NCBI RefSeq assembly: GCF_016411865.1
Contig: NZ_JAEKJA010000012.1
Span: 62,001-126,000 of the forward strand
Direction of reading: 5' to 3'
DNA: 64,000 nucleotides
From: Acuticoccus mangrovi
GTDB lineage: Bacteria > Pseudomonadota > Alphaproteobacteria > Rhizobiales > Amorphaceae
The notes under the pieces: model-generated
Seen by the model: the letters and a program-made list of their open reading frames with translations, nothing else
Database searches by the model: none
What the model was told of the DNA's origin: nothing
Shown here: piece by piece, positions 5,642 to 36,124 of the stretch
Numbering within the stretch: the first letter of the stretch is position 1
How the letters are laid out: every line of letters begins with the position of its first letter
Translations under genes and position numbers: made by a program

Positions 5642-5642
5642 C

Positions 5643-6871: not shown

Positions 6872-6929
6872 GGGTCTCACCGATTGTGTCTGGCTCGGGG
6901 CGGGCGACGCTCGGGGCGAGCGGGCGCGG

Positions 6930-8389: not shown

Positions 8390-9143
8390 GTGGGCGACGC
8401 CAACGCGAACGTCATCGAGACGCGCGGCCTGACGCGCACATTCGGCGGCTTCGTCGCCGTCAAGGACGTCGATTTCGCTGTCCGCAAGCATGCCCTGCAC
8501 GCGCTGATCGGACCGAACGGCGCGGGCAAGAGCACGCTGTTCAACCTCCTCACCCGCTTCCTGCCGGCGACGCGCGGGACGATCGTCTACCGCGGCACCG
8601 ACGTCACCCGCACGCCCCCCGCCACGCTGGCGCGACGCGGGATGGTGCGCTCGTTCCAGATCTCCTCGGTCTTCCCGCACCTGACAACCCACGAGAACGT
8701 GCGCATCGCGCTCCAGTCCCGCCACCGGGAGACCTTCGCCTTCTGGCGCGCCGACCGCTCGCTCAAGCACTATGACGAGGAGGTCCGCACCCTCCTCGCC
8801 GACGTCGGCCTCGAGCCCTACGCCCAGCGCCTCGCGACCGAGCTGCCCTACGGCCGCAAGCGCGCGCTCGAGCTCGCAACGACGCTCGCGATGCAACCCG
8901 ACGTGATCCTGCTCGACGAGCCGATGGCCGGCATGGGCCAGGAGGACATCGCGCGCACCGCCGAGCTGATCCGCCGCGTCGGCGAGGGCCGCACCATCTT
9001 GATGGTGGAGCACAACCTGTCCGTCGTCGCCGACATCTGCGACCGCATCACCGTCTTGCGGCGTGGCGAGATCATCGCCGAAGGCAGCTACGCCGAGGTC
9101 TCCGCCGACCCCGAGGTGCGCCAGGCCTATATCGGCAGCGACC

Positions 9144-9151
<8 letters not shown>
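8390..9151 (+). CDS. livG: branched-chain-type ABC transporter ATP-binding protein (LivG-like)
   Basis: This 253-residue ATPase has Walker [10 protein letters not shown] (41-49), a signature-like LPYGRKR (152-158), Walker B VILLDEP (172-178) and the H-loop H208. The [16 protein letters not shown] segment is typical of LivG. I chose GTG 8390 because GGAGGGG sits just upstream and the family start fits; an in-frame ATG at 8336 would add 18 residues of non-homologous sequence. It overlaps livF by 8 bases. The importer probably uses the binding protein encoded at 6930-8132. Confidence 0.92.
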
Positions 9152-9872
<721 letters not shown>

Positions 9873-9882
9873 GGGGAGGACG

Positions 9883-10761
9883 ATGCTGTCAGTGCCGCTG
9901 GTGGTGCTGCTGGGACAGGTGGTGCTCGGGCTGATCAACGGGGCGTTCTACGCCGTGCTCAGCCTCGGGCTCGCCATCATCTTCGGCATGCTCAACGTGA
10001 TCAACTTCGCCCATGGCGCCTTCTACATGCTGGGCGCCTTCGTCTGCTGGCTCCTCCTCACCCATGTCGGGCTCGGCTACTGGCCCGCGCTCGTCGTGGT
10101 GCCGCTCGTGGTCGGCGCGGTGGGCGTCGTCGTCGAGCGCGTCTTTCTCAGCCGCCTCGCCGGCATCGACCACCTCTACGGGCTCCTCTTCACCTTCGGC
10201 CTGGCGCTCGCCCTCGAAGGCGGGTTCATCTTCGTGTTCGGCGCGGCCGGCAACCCCTATCCGGTGCCCGACGCGCTGCGCGGCATCGTCCGCCTCGGGC
10301 CGCTGATCCTGCCGCTCTACCGCTTCTGGGTGATCACCGCCTCGATCATCGTCTGCCTCGCCGTCTGGCTCCTCATCGAGAAGACGCGCCTCGGCGCGCT
10401 GCTGCGGGCGGCCACCGAGAACCCGCGCCTCGTCACCGCCTTCGGCGTCAACGTCCCGCTGCTGGTAACGCTGACCTACGGCGCCTGCGTCGGCCTCGCG
10501 GGCTTCGCCGGCGTCCTCGCCGCGCCGATCTACCAGGTGAGCCCCACCATGGGCTCCAACCTCATCATCATCGTCTTCGCCGTGGTCGTCATCGGCGGGC
10601 TCGGCTCGATCGGCGGGTCGATCGTCACCGGGCTGGCGCTCGGCGTCATCGAGGGGCTGACCAAGGTGTTCTACCCCGCGGGCTCCACCATCGTGATCTT
10701 CCTCGTGATGGTGCTGGTGCTCATGCTGCGCCCGGCGGGCCTGTTTGGACGGGAGACCTAG
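9883..10761 (+). CDS. livH: branched-chain-type ABC transporter permease (LivH-like)
   Basis: This 292-residue hydrophobic protein begins with the LivH-typical pattern LINGAFYAVLSLGLAIIFG and MLNVINFAHGAFYMLG, followed by about eight membrane segments. A conserved VIGGLGSIGG loop lies near the C terminus. It forms one half of the transmembrane channel with the LivM-like protein encoded 2 bases downstream. An SD-like GAGGGGAGG precedes the ATG. Confidence 0.94.
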   Translation: MLSVPLVVLLGQVVLGLINGAFYAVLSLGLAIIFGMLNVINFAHGAFYMLGAFVCWLLLTHVGLGYWPALVVVPLVVGAVGVVVERVFLSRLAGIDHLYGLLFTFGLALALEGGFIFVFGAAGNPYPVPDALRGIVRLGPLILPLYRFWVITASIIVCLAVWLLIEKTRLGALLRAATENPRLVTAFGVNVPLLVTLTYGACVGLAGFAGVLAAPIYQVSPTMGSNLIIIVFAVVVIGGLGSIGGSIVTGLALGVIEGLTKVFYPAGSTIVIFLVMVLVLMLRPAGLFGRET

Positions 10762-10763
10762 CG

Positions 10764-11741
10764 GTGGCCGCCCTCGTCCTCCCCCTCGTCCGAAGCCGCA
10801 TCCTCGGCGCGCTCGCCCTCGCCGTGCTCGCGGTCGTGCTCGTGATCCTGCCCTACCGGATCTATCCGCTGTTCGTGATGAACGTGTTCGCGCTGGTGCT
10901 GTTCGCCTCGGCGGTGAACCTCGTCGTCGGCTACGCGGGGCTCCTGTCGCTCGGCCATGCCGCCTTCTTCGGTGGCGCGGCCTACGTCACCGCCCACGCG
11001 GCGAAGGCCTGGGCGCTGCCCTTCGAGGTCTCGGTCCTCCTCGGAACCGCCTTCGCTGCACTGCTGGGCCTATTGTTCGGCCTGATCGGCATCCGCCGCC
11101 GCGGCATCTACTTCGCCATGATCACCCTGGCGCTCGCGCAGATGGTGTACTTCCTCGCCGTGCAGCTCCCCTTCACCGGCGGCGAGGACGGCATCCAGTC
11201 GGTGCCCCGCGGCACCCTCCTCGGCATCGTCGACCTCGGGGACATCCGCTCGATGTACTACGTCGTCCTCGCCGGCATGGTCATCGGCCTCGTCGTGATC
11301 TGGCGCACCATCCATTCGCCCTTCGGCCACGTCCTCGCCGCGATCCGCGAGAACGAGGCGCGCGCGGTCTCCCTGGGGCTCGACGTGGCGCGCTACAAGT
11401 TGACCGCCTTCGTCCTCTCCGCCGCCCTGTCGGGCTTCGCCGGCGCGCTCAAGGTGCTGTCGTTCCAGCTCGCGGCGCTCAACAACGTCTCCTGGCACCT
11501 GTCCGGCGAGGTCGTGCTGATGACGCTGATCGGCGGGCTCGGCACCTTCGCCGGACCGATCATCGGCGCCGCCTCCCTCGTCACGCTGGAGCAGATGCTC
11601 GCCACCAGCGGACTGCCGATCTCCCTCGTCATCGGTACGATCTTCATGGTCTGCGTCATGCTGTTCCGCCGCGGCGCGTGGGGCGAGGTGCGCGCCCGCC
11701 TCGCCGCGCTGGCGGACCGTCAGGGCCCGGGGAAATCGTAG
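10764..11741 (+). CDS. livM: branched-chain-type ABC transporter permease (LivM-like)
   Basis: This 325-residue membrane protein shows the LivM pattern YAGLLSLGHAAFFGGAAY and GIRRRGIYFAMITLALAQM, with IRENEARAVSLGLDV in the coupling region and a TLIGGLGTFAGPIIG loop. Translation starts at GTG 10764, 2 bases after the livH stop. Its 3' end overlaps the convergent HxlR gene by 22 bases, and no terminator was seen between them. Confidence 0.93.
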   Translation: MAALVLPLVRSRILGALALAVLAVVLVILPYRIYPLFVMNVFALVLFASAVNLVVGYAGLLSLGHAAFFGGAAYVTAHAAKAWALPFEVSVLLGTAFAALLGLLFGLIGIRRRGIYFAMITLALAQMVYFLAVQLPFTGGEDGIQSVPRGTLLGIVDLGDIRSMYYVVLAGMVIGLVVIWRTIHSPFGHVLAAIRENEARAVSLGLDVARYKLTAFVLSAALSGFAGALKVLSFQLAALNNVSWHLSGEVVLMTLIGGLGTFAGPIIGAASLVTLEQMLATSGLPISLVIGTIFMVCVMLFRRGAWGEVRARLAALADRQGPGKS

Positions 11742-12682
11742 CGCAGGATATAGTCCGTCTCGTTGGCGACGAGCGGTTCCTTGCAGTGGCTGCACACCAC
11801 CTGGGGCACGAAGTCCTGCTGGCAGAGGCGGTGGCGCAGCCGCAGCGGCGGCCGGTCGCCGGTCAGCCAGCGGTCGCCCCAGGCCATCATCACGATCATC
11901 GGCTTGTAGAGATCGCGGCCCATCGCGGTGAAGCGATATTCGTGACGCCCGCCGCCGTAGTGGACGCGGTCGAACACGCCGGCCTCGACGAGGCGGGCGA
12001 GCCGGTCGGCGAGGATGTTTGAGGCGATGCCGAGCTTCTCGCGCATCTCGTCGTAGCGGCGCACGCCGAAATAGGCCTCGCGCAGGACGAGGAAGCTCCA
12101 GCGGTCGCCGATCAGCCCGAGGCTGCGTGCGACCGAGCACGGCCGCACGCGCTGCAGCACCTCGGGGTCGGACGCCCGACGCGTCTTCGCCCGCCGCTGG
12201 ACGGGGCCGAAGCCGGCCCCCGGCCCGTCGCGAAAGTGGACGTCGCGCGCCTCGATGGGCGTCTTGCACTCCGAGCAGACCGTCATCGGGTGGCACTCGT
12301 GGCCGCAGGTCTTGTGGATCAGCTGCAGCGGCGGCGGTGCACCGCCGGCGAGCCACTTGTCGCCGAACTCCATCAGCGAGAGCATCGAGGCGAAGAGATC
12401 CTTGCCGCGCGGGGTGAAGAAATATTGATGCCGGCGCTCGCCCTCGCGGTGGCCGATGACGAGGATCTCGTTGTCGACGAGCGCGGCGAGGCGGTTCGTC
12501 AGCGTCTGCCGCGGAATGCCGAGGCGCGACTGGAGAAGGTCGAACCGGCGCACGCCGAAGAAGGCTTCCCGGATGATGAGGAAGCTCCAGCTGTCGAGGA
12601 CGATCTCGACCGTGTCCCGGACGGAGCAGTTCCGCTCCACGAGGGTCGGGCCATTCGAGAGAGCGTCGATCTGATGCTGCAT
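11720..12682 (-). CDS. transcriptional regulator with two tandem HxlR domains
   Basis: This 320-residue protein contains two complete HxlR winged-helix domains, whereas the family is normally a single domain of about 110-150 residues. The repeats align at SWSFLIIREAFFGVRRF (31-47) and RWSFLVLREAYFGVRRY (194-210). Each is followed by a Cys cluster: C126/C130/C136/C139 and C287/C297/C300 with H284. These could be small zinc ribbons. A single chain could thus mimic the usual homodimer. It is convergent with livM and lies between two catabolic regions, so its target is uncertain. Each repeat starts near an NCSV or PCSV motif, as in classical HxlR proteins. Confidence 0.88.
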   Translation of the reverse strand: MQHQIDALSNGPTLVERNCSVRDTVEIVLDSWSFLIIREAFFGVRRFDLLQSRLGIPRQTLTNRLAALVDNEILVIGHREGERRHQYFFTPRGKDLFASMLSLMEFGDKWLAGGAPPPLQLIHKTCGHECHPMTVCSECKTPIEARDVHFRDGPGAGFGPVQRRAKTRRASDPEVLQRVRPCSVARSLGLIGDRWSFLVLREAYFGVRRYDEMREKLGIASNILADRLARLVEAGVFDRVHYGGGRHEYRFTAMGRDLYKPMIVMMAWGDRWLTGDRPPLRLRHRLCQQDFVPQVVCSHCKEPLVANETDYILRYDFPGP

Positions 12683-12705
12683 GAGGATGATCTAGTCTGA
12701 GAATA

Positions 12706-12731
12706 GCCGCCGCGCCAAGCGCCGCGGCGGC
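12706..12731 (-). terminator. GC-rich hairpin downstream of the LysR gene
   Basis: A perfect 9-base inverted repeat, GCCGCCGCG (12706-12714) and CGCGGCGGC (12723-12731), has an 8-base loop. It starts 5 bases beyond the 3' end of the minus-strand LysR gene. There is no strong T-tract, so it may act as a rho-dependent or weak intrinsic terminator that shields the HxlR gene. Confidence 0.5.
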
Positions 12732-12736
12732 CGACG

Positions 12737-13630
12737 CTACCCCGTCTCCCCGCTCGCGAGGGCGGCGGCCACCTCCAGGAAGCGCGGAAGGGCCGGGTTG
12801 AGGTTCGTCGGCTGCCAGGCGAGGACCTGCTCGACGGTCGGCGGATCGCGCAGCGCACGGAAGCACACCCCCGACACGCCCAGCCGCCCGACCGAGTGCG
12901 GGACGAGCGCGACCCCGATCCCCTCCGCCACGAGGCTGACGATCGTCTGCTGAAGCTGGGTCTCGAGGCGAACGTGCGGCTCGACGCCGGCACGGGCGAG
13001 ATATTCGACGATCGCCGCGCGCAGGGTCGGGGTGGCGTCCTGCGGTGACGCGATCAGCGGCACGCCGGCGAGCATCGCGGCGTCGACGACGTCGTGCGCG
13101 GCGAGCGCGTGACCTTCCGGAAGGGCGAGGACCAGCGGCTCGCGATGGACCACGATGGTCTCGATGCCGCGCACGTCGTCCGGCCGGAACGTCACCACGG
13201 CGTCGAACCGGCCGCTCCCGATGCCGTCGAGGAGGTTCGACGGCATCGCTTCGAGGAGCGTCAGCGTGACGTCCGGGCACTCCGCCAGGAAGCGCCGGGT
13301 GAGGACGGGTACGCTCGCATAGGCGGCGTGCATCATGAACCCGATCGTCAGCGCGCCGAGCTCCCCGGCGCTCGCCCGGCGGGCGTTGCGGCAGGCCTGG
13401 TCCAGCTGGACGAGCACCGCCTTGCTGTCGAGGAGGAAGCGCTCGCCGGCCGGCGTGAGGCGGGCGCTGCGCGAGTGTCGCTCGATGAGCCTCACGCCGA
13501 GGTCCTTCTCGAGCGCGGCGAGCTGCCGGCTCAACGGCGGCTGGGTCACGTTGAGCCGCGCCGCGGCCCGCCCGAAGTGCAGCGTCTCGGCGAGGGCGAC
13601 GAAGTAACGGAGCTGGCGGACGTCGACCAT
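12737..13630 (-). CDS. LysR-family transcriptional regulator
   Basis: This 297-residue protein has a LysR helix-turn-helix at residues 1-60 (VRQLRYFVALAETLHFGRAA, then LNVTQPPLSRQLAALE) and a periplasmic-binding-like effector domain. The family pattern places the start at ATG 13630 rather than at an upstream in-frame codon. It is divergent from the AEC transporter gene, and a T-N11-A box lies between them at 13665-13685. It therefore probably controls that transporter in response to a small organic acid, and also its own gene. Confidence 0.93.
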   Translation of the reverse strand: MVDVRQLRYFVALAETLHFGRAAARLNVTQPPLSRQLAALEKDLGVRLIERHSRSARLTPAGERFLLDSKAVLVQLDQACRNARRASAGELGALTIGFMMHAAYASVPVLTRRFLAECPDVTLTLLEAMPSNLLDGIGSGRFDAVVTFRPDDVRGIETIVVHREPLVLALPEGHALAAHDVVDAAMLAGVPLIASPQDATPTLRAAIVEYLARAGVEPHVRLETQLQQTIVSLVAEGIGVALVPHSVGRLGVSGVCFRALRDPPTVEQVLAWQPTNLNPALPRFLEVAAALASGETG

Positions 13631-14725: not shown

Positions 14726-16189
14726 CTAGCCCTTCATCGTGGCGAAGCGGGTCTCGAGATAGGCGTCCGTCGCCTCGGAGCCGCCCTCGGTGCCGTAGCC
14801 GGAATCGCCGATGCCGCCGAACGGGACCTCGGCGAGCGCGAGGCCGATGTGGTTCACCGTCAGCATGCCGGAGCGGACCGCGAAGGGCAGCCGCTGGGCG
14901 GTCGCGGCGGAGCCGGTCCAGGCGTAGGCGGCAAGACCGTAGGGCAGCCGGTTCGCCTCGGCGATGGCGTCGTCGAAGTCCTTGAAGCGGTTGACGATCG
15001 CCAGCGGGCCGAACGGCTCCTCGTTCATCACCCGTGCATCGGTCGGAACGTCGGACAGGACTGTCGGTTGGAAGAAGTTGCCCTGGTTGCCGATGCGCTC
15101 GCCGCCGCAGTCGAGCGTCGCGCCCTTGTCGACCGCGTCGCTGATGAGACCCTCGAGGGCCGGGATGCGACGCTCGTTGGCGAGCGGCCCCATCTCGACA
15201 CCCGCCTCGGTGCCGCGGCCGACCTTCACCGCGCCCAGCATCTGCACGAAGCCCTCGCGGAAGCGGTCGAACGCCCCCTCCTGCACCAGAAAGCGCGTCG
15301 GCGAGACGCAGACCTGGCCGGCGTTGCGGATCTTGGAGTCCGCCATCGTCTTCACCGCCTGGTCGATGTCGGCATCGTCGAACACCAGGACGGGGGCGTG
15401 GCCGCCGAGCTCCATCGTGGCGCGCTTCATGTGCTGGCCGGCGAGCGCGGCGAGGTGCTTGCCCACCGGGGTGGAGCCGGTGAACGAGACCTTCCGGATG
15501 ACCGGGTGCGGGATCAGATATTCCGAGATCTCGGCCGGCACGCCGTAGACGAGGCCGATCACCCCGGAGGGGATGCCGGCATCGAGGAAGGCCTGGATCA
15601 GCGCCGCGGGCGAGGCCGGCGTTTCCTCCGGCGCCTTGACGATGATCGAGCAGCCGCTCGCGAGCGCCGCCGACAGCTTGCGGACCACCTGGTTGATCGG
15701 GAAGTTCCAGGGCGTGAAGGCGGCGACCGGGCCCACCGGCACCTTGAAGGTGAGCTGCATGACGCCGGGGGCACGAGAAGGGATCGTCTGGCCGTAGGTG
15801 CGACGAGCCTCCTCAGCGAACCAGTCGATCACCTCGGCCGCGCGCTCGATCTCGCCGGCGGCCTGGCCGAGCGGCTTGCCCTGCTCGAGCGTCATCATGT
15901 GCGCGATGGCGTCGACCCGCCCGCGCAGGAGATCGGCCGCCTTGCGCATCGCCGCGTAGCGCTCCATCACGCCGGTGCGGCTCCAGATCTCGAAACCCTT
16001 CACGGCGGCGGCGAGCGCCCGGTCGAGATCCTCGGTACCCGCATGCGCGACGGTCCCGATCACCTCGTCGGTCGCGGGGTCGCGGACGTCGATCGTCCGG
16101 CCCGAGGCGGCGTCGCACCACTCGTCGTCGATCAGAAGCTGCGTCGACGGGTAGGTACGGGCGGACGGATCGAAGGCCCTCTGCTGCAT
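14726..16189 (-). CDS. NAD(P)-dependent aldehyde dehydrogenase (succinate-semialdehyde dehydrogenase type)
   Basis: This 487-residue enzyme has all ALDH landmarks: oxyanion Asn162 in PWNFP, Lys185 in VKAPEETP, the catalytic Glu260 in MELGG and the nucleophile Cys294 in [12 protein letters not shown]. The [13 protein letters not shown] segment and C-terminal [13 protein letters not shown] resemble the GabD/SSADH group, so a semialdehyde substrate is likely but not proven. The start at 16189 fits the family length; the frame upstream is non-homologous. It is transcribed alone or with the genes from 20368 onward, as all are on the minus strand, but a 186-base gap separates them. Confidence 0.93.
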
Positions 16190-16375: not shown

Positions 16376-17107
16376 TCAGAGCGTGCGGGACCACAGGTCG
16401 AAGAGGCGCTTCCACACGAGCTCCGTCGCGACCGGCGCGTAGGCGCCGCGCTCGGGGAAGCAGAAACCGTGCTTGCATCCCTCGTGAACCTCGACCTGAT
16501 GCGTCACCCCCGCATCCTCCATGGCCTTGGTGAAGATTTCGATCGTCTCGGGCGGGGACGCCGGATCGTCGCCGCCGAAGCCGAAATACATCTCCGCCTG
16601 GACCTTGCCGACCCACAGATGGGGCGACTGCTCCAGCTCGTTGACGAGGCGGACCGCGTAGAGGCCGGCGGCCGACTTGATGCGGTCCGGATAAGCGGCG
16701 GCGGCCCAGGTGACGAACGGGCCGCCCATGCAATATCCGACGCAGCCGACTGGACCCGGCTTCACCTGCGATAGACCGTCGGCGAACGCGATGGCGGCGC
16801 CGGTGTCGTCGATGATCTGCTCGCGGTTCATCGCATGCTGGACGCACGCCCTGACGACGGCCGACATCGTCTCCTCGCGCCGCGGCAGGTCGAACCGCAC
16901 GGTGCCGATCCGGTAGTAGAGGTCCGGCAGCACGACGGCGTAGCCCGCCTTGGCGATCCGCCGCGCGATGTGCTTCAGCTCGTCGCGGAAGCCGGGCGCG
17001 TCCATGTAGAACAAGATCAGCGGCCATTCACCCTCCGCCGAGGGGCTGACGGTGAAGGCCGGCATCCGTCCGTGCCGGGTCGAGATCGACACATCCTGTT
17101 CGAACAT
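16376..17107 (-). CDS. dienelactone hydrolase family protein
   Basis: This 243-residue alpha/beta hydrolase has the DLH-type nucleophile elbow GYCMGG with Cys126, an acid at Asp180/181 in FGGDDPA and His213 in GCKHGF. This is the Cys-Asp-His triad characteristic of DLH. Substrates in the family include dienelactones from modified ortho-cleavage and other cyclic esters. A GTG (17110) and an ATG (17107) are adjacent; I prefer the ATG. It directly follows the first DUF35 gene (stop at 17111), so it is in the thiolase-like/DUF35 operon. Confidence 0.9.
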   Translation of the reverse strand: MFEQDVSISTRHGRMPAFTVSPSAEGEWPLILFYMDAPGFRDELKHIARRIAKAGYAVVLPDLYYRIGTVRFDLPRREETMSAVVRACVQHAMNREQIIDDTGAAIAFADGLSQVKPGPVGCVGYCMGGPFVTWAAAAYPDRIKSAAGLYAVRLVNELEQSPHLWVGKVQAEMYFGFGGDDPASPPETIEIFTKAMEDAGVTHQVEVHEGCKHGFCFPERGAYAPVATELVWKRLFDLWSRTL

Positions 17108-17110
17108 CAC

Positions 17111-17503
17111 CTACTCCGCGATCCGTGCCGCGTGCTGGCGGCGTCCGTCATGATCCACATACTCGAGACTGACGCGTTTGCCGATCCACGATCCCTCCGG
17201 CTCCTCGCCGACGAGGTTGGTCATGATGATCGGCCCTTCGTCGAGCCGCACGGCGACGGCGTTGTAGGGCGGCGGGAAGTCGTCGAAATATTTGCGATGG
17301 AAGACGACCCAGGACAGGATCGTGCCGGTGCCGGCGATCGGCTTCCATTCCGTCTCCATCGACAGGCACTTGGGGCAGATCGGCGATGGCGGGTAGCGGT
17401 ACGTCCCGCATGTCTTGCAGGCCATCAGCGCGAGCTTGCCGTTCTCGATGCTCTGCCACATCGGCGCATCCGAGAGGCTCATGACTGGGGTGGTCTTGCC
17501 CAT
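17111..17503 (-). CDS. DUF35 OB-fold/zinc-ribbon protein, partner of the thiolase-like protein
   Basis: This 130-residue protein has an N-terminal rubredoxin-like zinc ribbon with C29, C32, C43 and C46, followed by an OB-fold ending in VSLEYVDHDG. DUF35 (ChsH2-like) proteins bind thiolase-like enzymes and acyl-CoA. They are required partners in steroid side-chain hydration and retro-aldol cleavage (ChsH2, Ltp2). Its gene is 2 bases downstream of the thiolase-like gene at 17506, which supports a direct complex. Confidence 0.88.
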   Translation of the reverse strand: MGKTTPVMSLSDAPMWQSIENGKLALMACKTCGTYRYPPSPICPKCLSMETEWKPIAGTGTILSWVVFHRKYFDDFPPPYNAVAVRLDEGPIIMTNLVGEEPEGSWIGKRVSLEYVDHDGRRQHAARIAE

Positions 17504-17505
17504 CT

Positions 17506-18687
17506 CTACCTCCCGTAGATGATCGACACCGCCTTGCCGGCGACGTCGGACGAGTAGTGGACGAAATTGCAGTCGGGCACCTGGCGCTTGCCGCAGGTGC
17601 CGCGGACCTGGCGCACCGCCTCGATCTGGTGCCCCCACCCCTGCATGTAGCTCTCCGACAGATGCCCGCCGGAGGTGTTGACCGGCAGCGTGCCGCCGAG
17701 CGCATGCTGGCCTTCGGCGAGAAACTTGCCCGCCCCGCCGGGTGGACAGTAGCCGTAGCCTTCGAGGGCCAGCGGGATGTGGCAGGAGAAGCTGTCGTAG
17801 ATCTGCGCCGAGGAGATGTCCTGCGGCCCGACGCCGGCCATGTCGAACACCTGGCGCGCCACCTTCTGCTGAGCGGGCAGGTAGTACTCGGTCAGCCGCG
17901 GCTCCAGGCTGGTGGCGCCGCTGTTGAGGTCGTAGCGGCCGACGCCGTGGATCACCACCGGGTCGGGCCGCAGCGACCGCGCCCGCTCCGCCTCACAGAT
18001 GATCAGCGCGACGCCGCCGTCGTTGATGAGGCAGTAGTCGAAGAGGTGCAGCGGCTCGCAGACGAAGGCCGAGGTGAGATAGTCCTCGATGGTGATGGGC
18101 TTCTGCATTACCGCTTCGGGGTTGAGGCTCGCGGCGGCGCGTTGGGCGACGGCGACCTGTCCGAGCTCCTCCGGCTTCAGCCCCGTCTCCTCCATGTAGC
18201 GGCGGAACATCAGCGCGTAGAGCGCGCCCTGGGAGGTGAAGCCCCACGGCGCGTGATAGACGTAGGACAGGAACGAGGCGCCGCCGGCCGCGTTGGTGCC
18301 GCCGTAGTTCACCTTCTGGCTGCGCTGGGCGTTGCCGTAGACGAGGGCGACGACCTCGGCGAGGCCGGACTTGATCGCCATGCAGGCCTGGATCACCGCG
18401 AGCATCGCGTCGGCCTGGCCGCCCCAACGCACGTCGAGGCCGAGCACCTCGCCCATGCGCTCGTACGGCGTCGTCGGCCCGACGATCAGCCCGTCGATAT
18501 CGTCGCGCTTCAGGCCGCTGTCCTCGAGCGCCCGCACGAACGCGAGCGCGCCGAGCCCGACAGAATCGAGCGTCGCCTTCTCGCCGGCGCGTTGCGCGCG
18601 ATAGTCGGTGTGCCAGTCGGTGTGGCCGACCCCGACCACCGACGCGACCTTGCTGAGGCCTTTGCGCTCTTCGTCCGCTGCTTGCAC
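17506..18687 (-). CDS. thiolase-like (SCP-x/Ltp2-type) protein lacking the nucleophilic cysteine
   Basis: This 393-residue protein has the thiolase fold of the lipid-transfer-protein group, with QIYDSFSCHIPLALEGYGYC and VNTSGGHLSESYMQGWG near the C terminus. Counting back from the conserved helix in IQACMAIKSG, the position of the acyl-accepting Cys of true thiolases is Gln, so Claisen condensation or thiolysis is unlikely. A retro-aldolase role like Ltp2 fits the adjacent DUF35 gene. Translation appears to start at GTG 18687 behind GGAGGA. Tandem duplication with the pair at 18803-20368 is likely. Confidence 0.88.
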   Translation of the reverse strand: MQAADEERKGLSKVASVVGVGHTDWHTDYRAQRAGEKATLDSVGLGALAFVRALEDSGLKRDDIDGLIVGPTTPYERMGEVLGLDVRWGGQADAMLAVIQACMAIKSGLAEVVALVYGNAQRSQKVNYGGTNAAGGASFLSYVYHAPWGFTSQGALYALMFRRYMEETGLKPEELGQVAVAQRAAASLNPEAVMQKPITIEDYLTSAFVCEPLHLFDYCLINDGGVALIICEAERARSLRPDPVVIHGVGRYDLNSGATSLEPRLTEYYLPAQQKVARQVFDMAGVGPQDISSAQIYDSFSCHIPLALEGYGYCPPGGAGKFLAEGQHALGGTLPVNTSGGHLSESYMQGWGHQIEAVRQVRGTCGKRQVPDCNFVHYSSDVAGKAVSIIYGR

Positions 18688-18802
18688 AGTTCCTCCAACT
18701 CGTTGTTCGTATTGGCAACGGCGGTGCCCGGCGTGGTTCGCCGCCGGACGCGCATACCCTGCCGGATGGACCGATCGTCCGGCGCCCCGCGAGGCGGCGG
18801 CA

Positions 18803-19195
18803 TCATGTGGGGGTGAAGACGGGCACCTTGTATTCGCCGCTCGTCGGCACGAAGGCGACGCGGACGGGCTGACCGGTCGTCAGCTCCTCCGGTCGGGCGT
18901 TGACGATGTTCGTCATCATGGTCGGCCCTTCCGCGAGGGTCACGTAGGCGAGGATGTAGGGGGCCGCCGTCCGCCGCATCGGCGCAAACGCATAGATCGT
19001 CCCCTCCCCGGACGCCTCGCGGAAGGCGGTGTCGTCGGAGAAGCAGAACGGGCAGCGCGCCCGCGGATACCAATGGGCGCGCTCGCACACGTTGCACCAT
19101 TTGACGAGGAACCGATCCTCCTTCGTCGCATCCCAGAAGGGCTGGTTTTCCGGCTGCACGACCGGCTCGGGATTGATGAAACCGTCGAGATCCAT
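18803..19195 (-). CDS. DUF35 OB-fold/zinc-ribbon protein, second copy
   Basis: This 130-residue protein has zinc-ribbon cysteines C34, C37, C48 and C51 and an OB-fold that ends PVRVAFVPTSG. It is a divergent paralogue of 17111-17503 with the same length. Its ATG is 3 bases from the stop of the upstream thiolase-like gene, so the two are coupled. Expected role: acyl-CoA binding partner of the 19199-20368 product. Confidence 0.88.
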   Translation of the reverse strand: MDLDGFINPEPVVQPENQPFWDATKEDRFLVKWCNVCERAHWYPRARCPFCFSDDTAFREASGEGTIYAFAPMRRTAAPYILAYVTLAEGPTMMTNIVNARPEELTTGQPVRVAFVPTSGEYKVPVFTPT

Positions 19196-19198
19196 GGC

Positions 19199-20368
19199 TC
19201 AGCCGCGCTCCAGAATGATCGTCGACGAGGCGTGCCGCACGCCGAGCTGTCCGCCGATCGCATTGGCGAGGGCGAGGTCGCAGTCCGGCACCTGGACGGC
19301 GGGGTGCGCTTCCCCGCGGATCTGGCGCACCGCCTCCAGCGCCTTCGTCATCCCGCCACGGTTGACGGGGTGGTTGTTGCAGAGCCCGCCGCCGTCGGTG
19401 TTGACCGCGAGCCGGCCACTGCCGGAGATGAGCCCGCCGTCGGACACGAAGGCGCCGATCTCGCCCTTCTCGCAGAAGCCGAGATCCTCGAGCTGCACCA
19501 TCGCGGTGATGGTGAAGCTGTCGTAGATCGAGGCGTAGCGGATGTCGGCCGGCGTGACGTTCGCCTGGGCGTAGGCTGTCGCGCCGGAGCGCCGGGCGCC
19601 GCTGTCGGTGATCTCGGCATAGCCGCCGGCCTGGCCGTAGGGCGCCTCGCCACAGCCGATCACCTTGACGAGCGGCCGGTCGAGGCTCTTCGCGATCTCC
19701 TCACGCGTGACGACGAGGGCGCCGCCGCCGTCAGTGACGACGCAGCAATCGAGCCGGTGCAAGGGATCGGCGACGAGCGGCGAGTTCACCACGTCCTCGA
19801 CCGTGACCACGTTGCGCAGCTTGGCGTTGGGGTTGTGCTGGGCGTGGTGGGAGAAGGCGACCTTGACCCAGGCCATCTGCTCCGCCGTGGTGCCGTAGAG
19901 GTGGGCGTGCCGCTGCGCGACCATCGCATAGACGCCGAGGATCTGGATGCCGAACGGATGCTCGAACTCGAAGTCCGGCTGGTTCGGATTGTCGGCGCGC
20001 TTCAGCGAGCCTTTGGCCTTGCCTTCCTGGCGCGGGCGGCCGGCGAGCGTGATCAGCGCGACATCGCACTTGCCGGCGGCGATCGCCTGGCAAGCGTGCG
20101 CGACGTGGATGAGGTAGGACGATCCCGAGGTGTTCGTCGTGTCCACGTGGCGCAGGTTGAGGTTCATGTAGTCGGCCATCGACAAAGGGCCGGTGCCGGG
20201 CGTGTCGGGGCCACAGAACAGCCCGTCGACGTCGTCCTTCGTCAGGCCGGCGTCGGCGAGCGCCCCGGCGGCGACCTCGGCGTGGAGCTGCGCGACCGAT
20301 CGGTCCGGCGCGTCGCGCAAGGGGTGCTCGTACGCACCGACGATATAGCCGAGCCCTGGCCGCCGCAT
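19199..20368 (-). CDS. thiolase-like (SCP-x/Ltp2-type) protein, second copy, no nucleophilic cysteine
   Basis: This 389-residue protein has the same lipid-transfer thiolase layout as 17506-18687: GLTKDDVDGLFCGPDT near the start, then YASIYDSFTITAMVQLEDLGFC and VNTDGGGLCNNHPVNRGG at the end. The region TSGSSYLIHVAHACQAI replaces the CxSG nucleophile motif, so the reactive Cys is missing here too. The likely start is ATG 20368, with family similarity beginning at RRPGLGYIVGAYEHP. It is the first gene of the minus-strand run and divergent from a LysR gene. Confidence 0.88.
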   Translation of the reverse strand: MRRPGLGYIVGAYEHPLRDAPDRSVAQLHAEVAAGALADAGLTKDDVDGLFCGPDTPGTGPLSMADYMNLNLRHVDTTNTSGSSYLIHVAHACQAIAAGKCDVALITLAGRPRQEGKAKGSLKRADNPNQPDFEFEHPFGIQILGVYAMVAQRHAHLYGTTAEQMAWVKVAFSHHAQHNPNAKLRNVVTVEDVVNSPLVADPLHRLDCCVVTDGGGALVVTREEIAKSLDRPLVKVIGCGEAPYGQAGGYAEITDSGARRSGATAYAQANVTPADIRYASIYDSFTITAMVQLEDLGFCEKGEIGAFVSDGGLISGSGRLAVNTDGGGLCNNHPVNRGGMTKALEAVRQIRGEAHPAVQVPDCDLALANAIGGQLGVRHASSTIILERG

Positions 20369-20553
20369 TCCCCATCCCTTTGCGATGTTCTTGACTTTGC
20401 GCGAGGATAGGCAGCTCACCCGCCGCATTCAAACGCTCATACGTCGGCCATGGGTTGAGAAAAACTCATCGACCGTCTGTCAGTCCGCGCTTCTGGCCGC
20501 TGCACGGGCGGTGTAGGCTCGTAGCGGTTGCTGGTTCGGAGCGGAACGTCACG
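20369..20553. promoter_or_regulatory. divergent regulatory gap between thiolase-like operon and LysR gene
   Basis: This 185-base gap separates divergent starts. It contains the small inverted repeat TGAG-AAAAA-CTCA (20456-20468) and another CTCAT at 20436-20440, which could be part of a LysR binding region. The repeat is short, so the assignment is tentative. Confidence 0.35.
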
Positions 20554-21498
20554 ATGGCGCGTCGATTGCCCCCTCTCAACGCCCTGCGCGCCCTGGAGGC
20601 GGCCGGCCGGCATCTGAGCTTCACCCAGGCGGCCAACGAGCTGAACGTCACCCCGGGCGCCGTCAGCCGGCAGATCAAGCTGCTCGAGGAGACGCTGGGG
20701 CTGCAGCTCTTCGAGCGGAAGGCCGGCGCGCTGGAGGCGACGCCGCGCTGCCGGGACTACGCGCAGGTTCTCTCCGACGTGTTCAGCCGCATCGAGACGG
20801 CGACGAACCGGCTGACCGACGTCGACCGCGACCGCGAGCTTTGCATCTCGGCCTCGGTGACCTTCACCCTCCTCTGGCTCGTGCCGCGGATGACCGCGTT
20901 CCACGAGCGGCACCCCGAGTGGCAGCTTCGCCTGACCGCCGCCGTGCCCCCGCCCCGCCTCAACGACGGCGGCAAGGCGGACGTCTTCATCCAGCTCAAC
21001 GCCGGGACGGAGACCGACCTCAGCTGCGAGCGCCTGCTCGGCAACGATCTCATCCCGGTCTGCAGCCCGGCGCTGTTGGAGAGCGGGCCGCCGCTCGTGA
21101 CACCGGCCGACCTCAACCGCCATCGCCTGCTCCACTCGCTGCTGCGGCCGATGCATTGGCCGCATTGGCTCGCCGCGGCGGGGGTGACGGAGGTCGACGG
21201 CGAGGCGGGCCATTTCCACGGCACGTCGGCGCTCTGCTATCAGGCGGCCATCGAAGGGCTCGGCGTCGCCATCGCGCAGCTCAATTTCGTGGTCGACGAC
21301 CTCGTATCCGGGCGCCTCGTCACGCCGTTCCGCGTGATCGCGGAGGATCGCGAGGCGTTCCACTTCATCAGGGGAACCAAGCCGCGCACGGCCAAGCTCG
21401 ACCAGTTCGAGGCCTGGATCTTCGAGGAGGCGGCGCGCCACGAGGCGTGGGTGCGCAGCCTGACCGCCGACTATCAGCGGCTGCCCCCGGCCTGCTGA
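20554..21498 (+). CDS. LysR-family regulator (GcvA-like subgroup)
   Basis: This 314-residue regulator opens with RRLPPLNALRALEAAGRHLSF and ELNVTPGAVSRQIKLLEETL, the typical GcvA-subgroup HTH, and has the LysR effector domain after residue 90. It is divergent from the thiolase-like/DUF35 operon, so that operon is the most likely target. The 3' end overlaps the convergent MFS gene by 25 bases. Start ATG 20554 matches the family start; upstream in-frame sequence is not conserved in character. Confidence 0.92.
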   Translation: MARRLPPLNALRALEAAGRHLSFTQAANELNVTPGAVSRQIKLLEETLGLQLFERKAGALEATPRCRDYAQVLSDVFSRIETATNRLTDVDRDRELCISASVTFTLLWLVPRMTAFHERHPEWQLRLTAAVPPPRLNDGGKADVFIQLNAGTETDLSCERLLGNDLIPVCSPALLESGPPLVTPADLNRHRLLHSLLRPMHWPHWLAAAGVTEVDGEAGHFHGTSALCYQAAIEGLGVAIAQLNFVVDDLVSGRLVTPFRVIAEDREAFHFIRGTKPRTAKLDQFEAWIFEEAARHEAWVRSLTADYQRLPPAC

Positions 21499-22816: not shown

Positions 22817-22972
22817 TGTAGAGGCGACGCGACGGCTAATCGGTCGCAGGATAGACACTCCGGTTTATCCTAAACGGTTGAGTAGTCAACGTCACAACGT
22901 AGAGAATGCACCCACCGAATATGAATTGCAAAGGAGGGAAGACGTATCCGCACTGCCTTGGGAAGTTCAGCA

Positions 22973-23908
22973 ATGCCGCCGTTTCTTTCAATTGATATCG
23001 AAGAGCGGCATTCTAAAGACGACGAACCTGCCGTCACCGAGGCGATCGCGTTCTGCGGACGCATCTTGTCCGACCTTGGTGCCCGTGTCGTCAGCAATGC
23101 GGCGGAGAACACCTTTCGTGACGCCCGGACCCGCCTGTTCCTGTCGCTTGGCAAGGCGCATGGCGCACCGGCCGAGCGCCCGCGGCTCGCCCTCGTGGGC
23201 GGCGCGTCCGCCGCGGGAGCCGAGACGAGCGTACGCGTCGCGCTGCTGCCCGAGGGCTCGCCCGACATTCCGATGTCCGAGTTCACGCTGATGGCGGCGA
23301 CGGGGCTGCTCGATCTGATCGGCGATCCTGCGCGGGAGCCGCTGCGCCTGCCCGCGGGCCAGCTCGCGCGCGCGGCGGGCCTTGCCGCGTTCACCGCCGC
23401 CGCCGGGCTGATCCGCGGCGGGGTGGCGGGATCGGCGCACGTGTCGCTGCTCGACGTCGGCCTGTGGCTCAACTGGAAGAGCTTCGTCCTCGCGCGCGAG
23501 ACCGGCCGAGCGCCGCACCGCCTCGGCCGGGGTGCCGAGTGGCAGGTCCTCGCCTGCCGCGACGGCTTCATCGGCCTCGTCTATCGTGAGCAGGACTGGG
23601 ACGCTGTGAAGGCGCTCGTCGGCGACCCCCGCCTCGACGATCCCGGATTCGACCTGCGCGCCGACCGCAAGGCGCGCTCGGCGGAAATCGTCGCGATCGT
23701 GGAAGAGCGGATCGCCGATCGCACCCGCGCCGACATCATGGCCTTCGCCAGCGCGCACCGGATTCCGCTCGGCCCGGTGCTGACCACCGCCGAGGTCATC
23801 GACGACCCCCACTCCGTCGCCCGCGGCGCCTTCGTGAAGGCGGAGGGCGCCCTCCTTCCCCGGCTGCCGGTCCTGTGGAACGGCAGCCCCCTCGAGACCC
23901 GACCATGA
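22973..23908 (+). CDS. family III CoA-transferase-like subunit lacking the catalytic aspartate
   Basis: This 311-residue protein resembles CaiB/BaiF (family III) CoA-transferases through its middle and end, for example GLIRGG with VSLLDVGLWL, and the late RIPLGPVLTTAEVIDDPHSVARGAF. The position of the catalytic Asp (Asp169 of formyl-CoA transferase) reads LPAGQLARAAG, with Gln130 instead. The N-terminal Rossmann half is also degenerate. Together with the next gene, overlapping by ATGA, it probably forms a heteromeric enzyme in which this subunit is non-catalytic. Start ATG 22973 was preferred over TTG 22958. Confidence 0.85.
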   Translation: MPPFLSIDIEERHSKDDEPAVTEAIAFCGRILSDLGARVVSNAAENTFRDARTRLFLSLGKAHGAPAERPRLALVGGASAAGAETSVRVALLPEGSPDIPMSEFTLMAATGLLDLIGDPAREPLRLPAGQLARAAGLAAFTAAAGLIRGGVAGSAHVSLLDVGLWLNWKSFVLARETGRAPHRLGRGAEWQVLACRDGFIGLVYREQDWDAVKALVGDPRLDDPGFDLRADRKARSAEIVAIVEERIADRTRADIMAFASAHRIPLGPVLTTAEVIDDPHSVARGAFVKAEGALLPRLPVLWNGSPLETRP

Positions 23909-25032
23909 CCCCTCTCAAAGGCGTAACCGTCCTCGACCTCGGGATCATCACCGCGGGGGCGGCGACGTCCGCCCTCCTCGCCGATCTCGGCGCCGACGTG
24001 ATCAAGATCGAATCGCCCACCTACAAGGACCCGTTCCGGATCTGGGTGTCGTCGTCGCCGCAGGATCGCGACAAGCTCTCCCCTCACTTCGGCGCGACGA
24101 ACCGGGGCAAGAAGGCCCTCGCCGTCAACCTCAAGGAGCCCGAGGGGCGCGACTGCTTCCTGCGCCTCGTCGCCCGGGCCGACGTGGTGGTGGAGAACTT
24201 CCGCCGCGGCGTGCTCGACAAGCTCGGCATCGGCTTCGAGGCGCTCAAGGCGGCGAACCCGCGTGTCGTTCTCGCCTCGATTTCGAGCCAGGGCGAGACC
24301 GGCCCCGACGCGATGCACGTCTCCTACGGCTCCACGCTCGAATGCGTCGCGGGGATGGCCTGGCTCCTCGGCTACGACGACGGACGGCCGACCGTGAGCG
24401 GCGTCGACCTCAACTACCCCGATCAGGTCGCCGCGATCTTCGCCGCCGGGATGATCGTGTCGGCGGTCCACGCCGTGGAGAACGGCGCCGAGGCGGTCCA
24501 TCTCGACCTGTCGCAGCGCGAGCTCACGTCGTTCATGATCGGCGACAGCTTCGCGAACCCGGAAGCGGTACCCGCCCGGGGCAACGCCGACCCCCGCTTC
24601 GCGCTGCAGGACTGCCTGAAAGCCGCGGACGGCCGGTGGGTCGCGCTCAGCGTGCGCGAGGCCGACGCGGTGGCGCACCCGCACGTCGGCACCCCAACCG
24701 CGGCGGCCGAGTGGATCGCCGCGCGCCCCGCCGACGAGGCCGTGGATGCGCTGACGGCGGCCGGGATCGCTGCCGCGGTGGCTGCGACCGGCGTCGAGAT
24801 CCTCGACGCGAAGCCCTGGTCCACCGCGATGATCGAGACGCCCGACGGCGCCATCCTGAAGGGAACGCCGTTCGACATCGGCACTCCCCATGCCGATCTC
24901 GTGGCGCCGGTGTTCGGCGGTGACACGGTCGAGGTGCTGGAGCGGCTCGGTGGCTATAGCCGCGAGGAGATCCGCACGCTGATCGAGCGCGGCATCGTCG
25001 CCGCGCCCGAGACCGCGGAAGCGGCGGAGTAG
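23905..25032 (+). CDS. family III (CaiB/BaiF) CoA-transferase, catalytic subunit
   Basis: This 375-residue protein begins GVTVLDLGIITAGAATSALLADLGADVIKIE, a textbook family III start. It carries the catalytic Asp173 in DLNYPDQVAA. These enzymes move CoA between a donor thioester and a carboxylate through an aspartyl anhydride and thioester. The ATG overlaps the preceding subunit's stop (ATGA). The C-terminal part is shorter than in many homologues (about 400 residues). A hairpin at 25024-25050 spans its stop. Confidence 0.92.
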   Translation: MTPLKGVTVLDLGIITAGAATSALLADLGADVIKIESPTYKDPFRIWVSSSPQDRDKLSPHFGATNRGKKALAVNLKEPEGRDCFLRLVARADVVVENFRRGVLDKLGIGFEALKAANPRVVLASISSQGETGPDAMHVSYGSTLECVAGMAWLLGYDDGRPTVSGVDLNYPDQVAAIFAAGMIVSAVHAVENGAEAVHLDLSQRELTSFMIGDSFANPEAVPARGNADPRFALQDCLKAADGRWVALSVREADAVAHPHVGTPTAAAEWIAARPADEAVDALTAAGIAAAVAATGVEILDAKPWSTAMIETPDGAILKGTPFDIGTPHADLVAPVFGGDTVEVLERLGGYSREEIRTLIERGIVAAPETAEAAE

Positions 25033-25050
25033 GCGCCCCGCCTACTCCGC
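25024..25050. terminator. bidirectional hairpin overlapping two convergent stop codons
   Basis: An 11-base perfect inverted repeat (25024-25034 and 25040-25050) with a 5-base loop covers the last codons and stop of the CoA-transferase gene and those of the convergent hydrolase gene (ends 25042). The stem core is GGAGTAGGC with GCCTACTCC. The mirrored GlyGlu-stop coding makes the hairpin part of both ORFs. Confidence 0.6.
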
Positions 25051-25878
25051 GACGATGGTGTTGCGCAGCACGCCCACGCCGCCGATCTCGACCTCGACGA
25101 CGTCGCCGGGCTTCATCCACACCGGCGGCTTGCGGGCCTTGCCCACCCCCTCCGGCGTGCCCGTCATGATGAGGTCGCCCGGCCGAAGCTCCGTGAACAC
25201 CGAGACGAAGGCGATGATCGCGCCGATGTCGAAGATCATCTTCGAGGTGTCGGAGTGCTGCATCACGGTGCCGTTGAGCCGGGTTTCCAGCGTCAGCGCG
25301 GAGGGGTCGGGGATCTCGTCGGCGGTCACGATCCACGGGCCGATGCCGCCGGTGGAGGGAAAATTCTTCCCGACGATCGCCTTGTAGCGGGACTGGAAAT
25401 CGCGCAGCGAGCCGTCGTTGAAGCACGTGTAGCCGAACACGTGCTCGAGCGCCCGCTCGGCCGGAATGTCCCGGCCCGGCTTGCCGATCACGACGCAGAC
25501 CTCGCCCTCATAGTCGAGCGCGTCGGAGGCGCGCGGGCGCACGATCGGCCCCTCGTGCGGCGTCAGCGACAGCAGCGTACGCATGAAGAGGCCGGGATAT
25601 TTCGGCGGCGTCGCGTCGGCCCCCTCGGCGAGGTGGTCGACGTAGTTGCGCCCGACGCAGAGGACCTTGCCCGGACGCGTGATCGGCAGGGCATAGGTCA
25701 CGTCGGTGAGGCGGTAGCGCGGCGCGTCGGCCGGCAGCGGCAGGGTGTCGCCGAGGCCCATGGCGATGGCGTCCTCCACCGTCTCACATCCCGGCAGCGC
25801 CGTGAGGTCCGACACCATGTCGCCCTCGACGAGGCCCCAGGCCGAGCGCGCGGCGATCGTGTAGCTTGCGACGCGCAT
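25042..25878 (-). CDS. fumarylacetoacetate hydrolase family protein
   Basis: This 278-residue protein has the FAH-fold core: GRNYVDHLAEGA, FMRTLLSLTPHEGPI, the metal-ligand region LDYEGEVCVVIGKPGRDI and GYTCFNDGSLRDFQ, ending MTGTPEGVG. These enzymes hydrolyse or decarboxylate 2-oxo and beta-diketo acids such as acylpyruvates or 2-hydroxymuconate derivatives. It is co-directional with and 2 bases upstream of nothing further on the minus strand, because the CoA-transferase converges on it. The NTF2-like gene precedes it by 2 bases. Confidence 0.92.
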   Translation of the reverse strand: MRVASYTIAARSAWGLVEGDMVSDLTALPGCETVEDAIAMGLGDTLPLPADAPRYRLTDVTYALPITRPGKVLCVGRNYVDHLAEGADATPPKYPGLFMRTLLSLTPHEGPIVRPRASDALDYEGEVCVVIGKPGRDIPAERALEHVFGYTCFNDGSLRDFQSRYKAIVGKNFPSTGGIGPWIVTADEIPDPSALTLETRLNGTVMQHSDTSKMIFDIGAIIAFVSVFTELRPGDLIMTGTPEGVGKARKPPVWMKPGDVVEVEIGGVGVLRNTIVAE

Positions 25879-25880
25879 CG

Positions 25881-26318
25881 CTAGCCTCGGCGCTTGAACG
25901 CGGGCGTCGAGCGCAGGTCCGCCATCAGCCAGGTGTCGCCCTCGTAGCGGAACTTCGCCTGGTAGACGCCGATGCTGCTCGGCAGATCCATCGGTGCCGC
26001 GCCCCTGTCGTCGAGATCGTCGCCGGTGTAGACGAACGCGGTGGAGTAGAACTGCGCCGCCGCGGTGCCGTCGTCGGCGACGTCGACGAGCACGTTGCTC
26101 AGAAGGTGGCGCGAATGACGGTCGGTGCCGCGCTTGTCCATCGCGGCGAGGAGGCCCTCGCGCCCGCGCAGGTCCTTGCCCGCGCGCCGCCAGCAGCCAT
26201 CGGGGGTCATCACCGCGGCCATGACGTCGAAGTCACGGCTGTCGAGCGCGACGTAGAAGCGCTTGATCTGCTTCTCGATGGCAAGTTCGGCGGCCTGTCC
26301 CATGGTCGTATCTGTCAC
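25881..26318 (-). CDS. NTF2-like / SnoaL-type small protein
   Basis: This 145-residue protein has the layout of nuclear-transport-factor-2-like proteins: an N-terminal helix EKQIKRFYVALDSRDFDVM, a central APDGCW-like turn (TPDGCWRR), and a strand-rich end FRYEGDTWLMADLR. Such proteins act as isomerases, dehydratases or the small subunit of aromatic dioxygenases (beta subunit). No alpha subunit is nearby. I chose GTG 26318 because AGGGAGG precedes it at good spacing; ATG 26303 is the alternative. It is 2 bases upstream of the FAH gene. Confidence 0.78.
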   Translation of the reverse strand: MTDTTMGQAAELAIEKQIKRFYVALDSRDFDVMAAVMTPDGCWRRAGKDLRGREGLLAAMDKRGTDRHSRHLLSNVLVDVADDGTAAAQFYSTAFVYTGDDLDDRGAAPMDLPSSIGVYQAKFRYEGDTWLMADLRSTPAFKRRG

Positions 26319-26399
26319 GAAATCCTCCCTTTTCTGTCGAGAGGATCACGCCCCCGGCGCGGTGACGGTCAACCGAAATAACCGCACATGGCGCATGCG

Positions 26400-26414
26400 T
26401 TTTAATCGTTTGAC
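26400..26414 (+). promoter_or_regulatory. recurrent upstream motif, copy 2
   Basis: TTTTAATCGTTTGAC matches copy 1 at 13 of 15 positions. It lies in the divergent gap between the NTF2-like gene (start 26318, minus) and the TPP-enzyme gene (start 26464, plus), 49 bases before the latter. A self-complementary GCATGC sits just before it. Confidence 0.45.
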
Positions 26415-26463
26415 CGGATGGCGAGCGGACGCGGAAAACAACCAACCACAGCGGGAGGACGGG

Positions 26464-28898: not shown

Positions 28899-28981
28899 TT
28901 GAGAACTCCCCCCTACTACGCCAGGTCAAGCTGGAGCGCTGAAAACCGCGCTCTTCTGAGGGGAATGCTAGGCTTCGATTG

Positions 28982-34250: not shown

Positions 34251-34259
34251 GGGGCCAGC

Positions 34260-36117: not shown

Positions 36118-36124
36118 GGGAATG

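Follow-up and report, generated by a model that had tools for sequence, protein, structure and literature searches.

Two thiolase-fold/DUF35 pairs of Acuticoccus mangrovi that lack the thiolase nucleophile: candidate acyl-CoA retro-aldolases in an apparently non-steroid setting

The 64,000-nucleotide stretch of Acuticoccus mangrovi DNA analysed here (contig NZ_JAEKJA010000012.1, positions 62,001 to 126,000 of the forward strand; hereafter the window) encodes two adjacent thiolase-like proteins, ThlA and ThlB, each of which is paired with a small DUF35 protein. Our reading, to which we assign a probability of about 0.6, is that ThlA/DUF35A and ThlB/DUF35B are two heteromeric acyl-coenzyme A (CoA) retro-aldolases that act in one non-steroid acid catabolic pathway. 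Judged by their active-site residues, ThlB is probably a retro-aldolase and ThlA is probably one also, with a Tyr-His or a Tyr-Cys330 site; the reactions, their order, the complexes, the single shared pathway and the substrate are what we infer, and the residues, the pairing and setting of the genes, the agreement of each DUF35 with its thiolase and the predicted folds are what we observe. The four genes are as follows.

19199 to 20368, minus strand: ThlA, thiolase-fold protein of 389 amino acids, a member of NCBIfam PRK08142, with Gly82, Y282-D-S-F, N-H333-P and Cys330
18803 to 19195, minus strand: DUF35A, 130 amino acids, zinc ribbon plus OB fold, the stand-alone partner of ThlA
17506 to 18687, minus strand: ThlB, thiolase-fold protein of 393 amino acids, with Gln91, Y297-D-S-F and Y347
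17111 to 17503, minus strand: DUF35B, 130 amino acids, zinc ribbon plus OB fold, the stand-alone partner of ThlB

A first-pass annotation had described two thiolase-like/DUF35 pairs with genes a few bases apart and a four-Cys zinc ribbon in each DUF35 partner, and both descriptions are confirmed. The stop of ThlA lies 3 base pairs (bp) from the start of DUF35A and that of ThlB 2 bp from DUF35B, with 115 bp between DUF35A and ThlB, and the ribbon reads C-x2-C-x10-C-x2-C (Cys4) in both partners, neither of which is fused to a MaoC hydratase. Pfam Thiolase_C_1 is found in both thiolases (151.7 and 111.6 bits) and zf-ChsH2 with OB_ChsH2_C in both DUF35 proteins. ThlA scores 663.2 bits against NCBIfam PRK08142 (NF006010), whose curated cut-off is 462; ThlB, at 178.5 bits, is not a member and passes no NCBIfam cut-off.

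The nucleophile column was anchored on the Cys of the P. furiosus thiolase 7yvy in an alignment with solved chains. In this column ThlA has Gly82 and ThlB has Gln91, in agreement with the earlier claim that Gly or Gln replaces Cys at the acyl-accepting position. With its shorter nucleophile loop ThlB is aligned less surely here, but no Cys occurs anywhere in that loop. In the ThlA matches (at least 60% identity, n = 31, with 15 from the locus search and 16 from the class search; 30 are distinct, L121 repeating L044) Gly82, Y282, D283, F285, N332, H333 and P334 are invariant, while S284 and Cys330 are each kept in 30. Among the ThlB matches (at least 55% identity, n = 59, all distinct) position 91 is Gln in 54, Glu in 2, Val in 2 and Asn in 1; Y297, D298, S299 and F300 are invariant, and all 58 sequences that extend over position 347 have Tyr there. 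A reactive Cys at the nucleophile position, the observation that the first-pass annotation had said would tell against it, is found in none of the 31 and 59 sequences. Counts of 17 ThlA and 82 ThlB sequences that take in the window's own copies (L003, L004 and L005) were not used. In both proteins YDSF replaces the HDAF or HDCF of thiolases; ThlA retains the thiolase His-Pro and ThlB lacks the His of the GHP motif. Cys330 lies three residues ahead of His333, in the loop that carries GHP in thiolases, and qualifies the Cys-less picture of ThlA. Within the tree set described below it occurs only in ThlA orthologues, the other sequences with His at the His333 column having Ser or Ala.

Two characterised aldolases provide the points of comparison. 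Ltp2-ChsH2, the steroid C3 side-chain aldolase of Thermomonospora curvata (PDB 6ok1), is like both pairs in its thiolase fold, the absence of a nucleophilic Cys, its YDxF Tyr base and its Cys4 DUF35 partner. Sal-Shy, the bile-acid C5 side-chain aldolase of Comamonas testosteroni (PDB 9myr), shares the fold, the YDxF Tyr base and a DUF35 partner, and Sal and ThlA both have Gly in place of the nucleophile; Sal-Shy differs in the catalytic Cys304 of its YDCY motif, which is Ser in ThlA and ThlB, and in the Cys3His1 zinc site of Shy. According to PMC12329534, Tyr294 of the TcLtp2 YDHF motif is the base and Tyr344 the acid, Tyr302 and Cys304 of CtSal fill the base and acid roles with Gln352 as the Tyr344 equivalent, and the zinc site is Cys4 in ChsH2 and Cys3His1 in Shy. 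The same source records that mutants of the equivalent Tyr and of the second residue have been published for TcLtp2 and CtSal, and that activity of CtSal Cys304Ser is undetectable.

Alignment with Ltp2, which had been suggested as a check on the active-site Tyr and His, gives a divided answer. The YDxF Tyr is present in both proteins and the Ltp2 Tyr344 column holds Tyr347 in ThlB, which as aligned carries the Tyr-Tyr pair of Ltp2 with Ser in place of its His; however, the YDHF His is Ser in ThlA too, and ThlA has His333 in place of the second Tyr. ThlA would pair Tyr with His, and Cys330 of the GHP loop may take part in catalysis. Neither protein has all of the tested defining features of Ltp2 or of Sal; ThlB appears closest to Ltp2, and ThlA lies on the 4u4e side of the family.

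The entry 4u4e, a 'putative thiolase' of Sphaerobacter thermophilus, is the top match of both proteins by sequence and by fold. It has YDSF and His-Pro as ThlA does and no nucleophilic Cys, with Ser at the Cys330 column; a literature search, with few subscription journals covered, found no paper combining 4U4E and thiolase. By sequence, the PDB relatives of ThlA are 4u4e, Sal and Ltp2, and those of ThlB are 4u4e, Ltp2 and Sal, in each case ahead of any Cys-bearing thiolase. AlphaFold2 models (input alignments of 63 and 33 sequences) reached a mean predicted local distance difference test (pLDDT) score of 92.1 for ThlB and 81.2 for ThlA. In Foldseek searches of the PDB the ThlB model matched 4u4e and then Ltp2, and the ThlA model 4u4e, Sal and Ltp2; other thiolase-fold proteins score well too, and the searches rank relatives and are no proof of function.

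Of the 61 ThlB matches in loci L035-L116 (at least 55% identity), 59 have a DUF35 gene no more than 300 bp away, and the two exceptions, L077 and L087, end at a contig edge. The distance matrices of thiolases and DUF35 proteins correlate at r = 0.863 over 77 non-redundant pairs with kinship not removed, and none of 2000 permutations was as high (maximum 0.159); for 30 of the 153 thiolase-like open reading frames no DUF35-like frame was found downstream by the search pattern, which required four zinc-ligand residues. In these comparisons DUF35 sequences track their own thiolases.

When 79 sequences were arranged in a FastTree phylogeny, with Cys-bearing thiolases and 4yzo as the root, ThlA and ThlB fell in different parts of it. 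The set was gathered by similarity to ThlA and ThlB and includes eight solved chains; it was reduced from 165 sequences, those left out being more than 78% identical to a kept one. The clade of ThlA (support 0.97) takes in 4u4e and further Tyr/His proteins. ThlB belongs to another clade (support 0.98), made up of Tyr-Tyr proteins with TcLtp2 at a deeper position; CtSal branches close to the root of the Tyr-type group, a placement that is poorly supported. ThlB relatives are 28-36% identical to ThlA, and the tree makes the two proteins separate old lineages, about 30% identical. A recent tandem duplication was considered and rejected on the separate clades; it is also countered by the DUF35 proteins, whose identities are 0.40-0.67 within A, 0.25-0.74 within B and at most 0.35 between A and B. 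The base position holds the aldolase Tyr in 73 of the 79 sequences and the thiolase His in 6. Written as base, third motif position and second site, the residue types are Y-S-Y (26), Y-N-Y (15), Y-A-H (13), Y-S-H (7), Y-A-Y (3), Y-C-Q (2), Y-C-Y (2) and single cases, counts that describe this similarity-gathered set and are not a census. The Cys-less rule is not absolute: a Cys no more than one column from the nucleophile position occurs in three of the Tyr-type sequences. Relatives come from contigs titled Alphaproteobacteria, Betaproteobacteria, Actinobacteria (Streptomyces, Pseudonocardia) and Chloroflexi.

Some family members have unusual forms or arrangements. The same genome has a second tandem of two thiolase-like/DUF35 pairs (L137, contig C16, about 8952-13104), downstream of a CaiB-type gene and close to the contig end; both of its thiolase-like proteins have the base Tyr and no nucleophile Cys, one with YDNF and Tyr, the other with YDAF and His. 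Three thiolase-like and two or three DUF35 genes lie within about 10 kilobases (kb) in L099, L100, L113 and L114 (Chloroflexi, uncultured bacterium). L106 encodes, from about 18573 onwards, a divergent thiolase-like protein on a long branch; its motif reads YTSF, and Ala occupies the nucleophile column. ThlB-like/DUF35 genes also occur in metagenome bins titled Bordetella parapertussis (L092, L094, L097 and L109), names that look wrong.

The other genes of the region that enter the argument are these.

16376 to 17110, minus strand: dienelactone-hydrolase-family protein (DLH; Pfam DLH), its start abutting DUF35B
14726 to 16189, minus strand: aldehyde dehydrogenase (ALDH), succinate-semialdehyde-dehydrogenase (SSADH)-like but under that family's cut-off; the start chosen is an ATG
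20455 to 21498, plus strand: LysR-type regulator, divergent from thlA
22958 to 23908, plus strand: CaiB1, family III CoA-transferase subunit; family match partial
23875 to 25032, plus strand: CaiB2, family III CoA-transferase subunit; among its solved relatives are formyl-CoA transferase and benzylsuccinate CoA-transferase
25042 to 25878, minus strand: FAH-family hydrolase
26263 to 28005, plus strand: thiamine-diphosphate (ThDP) enzyme of NCBIfam PRK07586, whose actual start is uncertain and probably lies downstream
28979 to 29626, plus strand: glutathione-S-transferase-like protein (GST)
29623 to 30426, plus strand: alpha/beta hydrolase, putatively enol-lactonase-like
30637 to 31425, plus strand: enoyl-CoA hydratase/isomerase (ECH), a candidate supplier of 3-hydroxyacyl-CoA
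31471 to 35411, plus strand: ABC importer (SBP_bac_6 binding protein, permease, ATPase)
35425 to 36781, plus strand: CoA-transferase (PF01144) subunits A and B
36708 to 37631, plus strand: PEP-mutase-family protein, nearest solved relative the PA4872 oxaloacetate decarboxylase; true start uncertain

The minus-strand order is ThlA, DUF35A, ThlB, DUF35B, DLH and ALDH, with 0 bp between DUF35B and DLH, and the translated genes have no internal stops at these coordinates. The ThDP enzyme had no PDB match at E<=1e-40.

Related loci were scanned for selected genes with identity thresholds that we set, over flanks of at most about 10 kb, so that absences are weak. Among 96 loci (L139, L140 and L142 repeat L086, L058 and L044, and L138 may repeat another) ThlB occurs in 59, ThlA in 23 (at least 60% identity) and both in 16 (15 distinct, L142 being the repeat of L044). 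These 16 all carry DUF35A and DUF35B, and most carry CaiB2 (14), a lactonase-like hydrolase (13), CaiB1 (12), the importer binding protein (12), a DLH-like gene, ECH and the permease (10 each) and a LysR regulator of the 28002 type (9). CoA-transferase A is found in 8, CoA-transferase B, the importer ATPase and MmgE/PrpD in 7 each, the ThDP enzyme in 5, GST in 4, the LysR of the 20455 type, the PEP-mutase-like gene, FAH and ALDH in 3 each, and IlvD in 2. A CaiB-type CoA-transferase is within 4 kb of ThlB in 43 of 61 matches. Because the recurrent neighbours, MmgE/PrpD and IlvD excepted, lie in the window at 14.7-37.6 kb, the thiolase/DUF35 pairs probably belong to a cluster that exceeds 20 kb, even if its window genes are on both strands. 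The dienelactone-hydrolase-like gene noted earlier alongside the pairs is thereby supported as a recurrent neighbour.

The ThDP enzyme, FAH, DLH and the hydrolase hint at carboxylic, lactone and 2-oxoacid chemistry, and the relatives' neighbours include MmgE/PrpD, IlvD, a 2-hydroxyacid dehydrogenase and a flavin adenine dinucleotide (FAD)-linked oxidase. Nothing here fixes the substrate, and for the branched or cyclic acyl-CoA first suggested the evidence points neither way. The window genes scanned (4.8-37.6 kb) included no recognisable steroid-ring gene and no recognisable acyl-CoA or 3-hydroxyacyl-CoA dehydrogenase. The non-steroid setting originally proposed, which differs from that of Ltp2, is supported by these neighbours, and a steroid pathway was set aside on the same genes, the rest of the genome not having been searched for steroid functions.

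According to PMC12329534, bile-acid side-chain loss is the work of a hydratase (Shy), an aldolase (Sal) and an aldehyde dehydrogenase (Sad). We propose an aldolytic beta-oxidation module of the same logic because the window holds ECH, both thiolase/DUF35 pairs and the SSADH-like ALDH, which mirror the Shy-Sal-Sad set, together with CoA-transferases. The ABC importer would take up an acid, to which the CoA-transferases would attach CoA, providing the thioester; ECH would hydrate it, unless a 3-hydroxyacyl-CoA is delivered as such. Tyr297 of ThlB would then remove the proton of the beta-hydroxyl, the C-C bond would break, and Tyr347 would protonate the enolate. The products would be an acyl-CoA and either a ketone or an aldehyde, and the ALDH would oxidise the latter. 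In ThlA, Tyr282 would serve as base, with either His333 or Cys330 as the acid, and in each pair the DUF35 protein may shape the substrate cleft. The module would cycle through hydration, retro-aldol cleavage, aldehyde oxidation and re-activation, the two aldolases handling two different intermediates.

Support for the double retro-aldolase system of the first-pass annotation is partial. It comes from the Cys-less fold, from the tracking DUF35 partners, from the YDxF Tyr that the two proteins share and from the Tyr that ThlB has at the second Ltp2 position; it is less complete for ThlA, in which the second Tyr of Ltp2 and the catalytic Cys of Sal are missing. Several observations weigh against two retro-aldolases in one pathway, the first being that ThlA lacks both Ltp2 Tyr344 and Sal Cys304. 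The loss of detectable activity in CtSal Cys304Ser means that the Ser of YDSF is no safe stand-in for that Cys, and His296 of the Ltp2 YDHF motif is Ser in ThlA and ThlB. The His333 loop of the ThlA model is poorly predicted (pLDDT below 50 at 327-329 and 331-336). ChsH2 and Shy are fused to a hydratase, unlike either DUF35 protein here. The matrix correlation leaves shared ancestry in. Among the 16 loci that carry both pairs, an ALDH was found in just 3 and an ECH in 10, and ThlB occurs without ThlA in 43 of its 59 loci, so ThlA and ThlB need not act together.

The most serious alternative is that only ThlB is a retro-aldolase and that ThlA carries out acyl transfer, condensation or decarboxylation through Cys330 and His333 of the GHP loop. 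The near-invariance of Cys330 (30/31) and the invariance of His333 (31/31), the retained thiolase His-Pro, the restriction of Cys330 to ThlA orthologues and the separate clade that ThlA shares with 4u4e-like proteins all fit this idea. We consider it unlikely nonetheless: the nucleophile column is Gly in every ThlA match, the base is Tyr and not the thiolase His, Sal is the second PDB entry after 4u4e by both sequence and fold, and related Tyr/His-Pro proteins manage without Cys330.

That ThlA and ThlB are non-catalytic or carrier subunits, holding acyl-CoA for other enzymes of the cluster, would agree with the loss of the thiolase catalytic residues; it is made very improbable by the invariance of the YDxF Tyr, Asp and Phe (31/31 and 59/59) and the conservation of a second residue, as expected of a working site. 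Least probable of all, and contradicted by the alignment, are ordinary thiolases of the BbsAB or SCP2 type cleaving 3-ketoacyl-CoA: the fold, the DUF35 partner and the names of annotated plasmid relatives ('thiolase family protein' or 'acetyl-CoA acetyltransferase') speak for them, but the nucleophile column lacks Cys throughout, YDSF stands in place of HDAF/HDCF and ThlB also lacks the GHP His. BbsAB itself (benzoylsuccinyl-CoA thiolase, 7pxp) has thiolase-fold and DUF35-type subunits like both pairs and, unlike ThlA and ThlB, HDAF, GHP and a nucleophilic Cys. Its pathway also uses a CaiB-family CoA-transferase, whose structure is among the relatives of CaiB2.

A retro-aldol step outside steroid metabolism is not a new idea, having been proposed already in ibuprofen degradation. 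IpfD and IpfE, the latter of which we take to be a DUF35 protein, have a non-steroid role like that proposed for ThlA and ThlB; the likeness is one of assigned role, and the scan of window genes did not reveal the ring dioxygenase of the ibuprofen pathway. According to PMC9195938 and PMC6063337, sphingomonad IpfD (SCP-X-thiolase-like) and IpfE are assigned the removal of an acyl-CoA group, in what is termed retro-aldolase cleavage; in the former source this step releases propionyl-CoA and ipfDE are the genes given for the thiolase. PMC11160463 mentions an Alcaligenes cluster, uncharacterised so far, that encodes a thiolase together with a DUF35_N protein. Our literature searches, whose coverage left out most subscription journals and none of which was aimed at YDSF, found nothing on the present cluster.

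We suggest tentatively, and at somewhat less than even odds, that ThlA represents an uncharacterised class of thiolase-fold aldolase with a Tyr-His (or Tyr-Cys330) site, and that with the Tyr-Tyr protein ThlB it would make up a dedicated, widespread, CoA-transferase-driven pathway of non-steroid aldolytic beta-oxidation whose members have been wrongly labelled thiolases or acetyl-CoA acetyltransferases. Annotated plasmid copies do bear such names, which would mislead metabolic reconstruction if the proteins are aldolases; they would then be C-C lyases outside steroids and, in reverse, C-C forming catalysts. With the relatives of ThlA and ThlB it can be tested directly how a single fold comes to use Tyr, His or Cys for its general acid.

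At two more distant loci, Chelativorans and Rhodococcus plasmids from oil-contaminated soil (L117 and L118), ThlB-like/DUF35 genes with 41-44% identity lie beside acyl-CoA dehydrogenases, CoA-transferases or F420 oxidoreductases. Near the cluster in L053 a gene at 4961-5824 encodes FAS1_DH, a MaoC-like dehydratase region and a possible hydratase for the aldolase substrate, and L056 has a seemingly similar open reading frame. Beside the cluster, positions 4772-11741 of the window hold a branched-chain/urea-type ABC importer, a molybdopterin-dehydrogenase-type FAD subunit and an enoyl-CoA hydratase, apparently a separate pathway.

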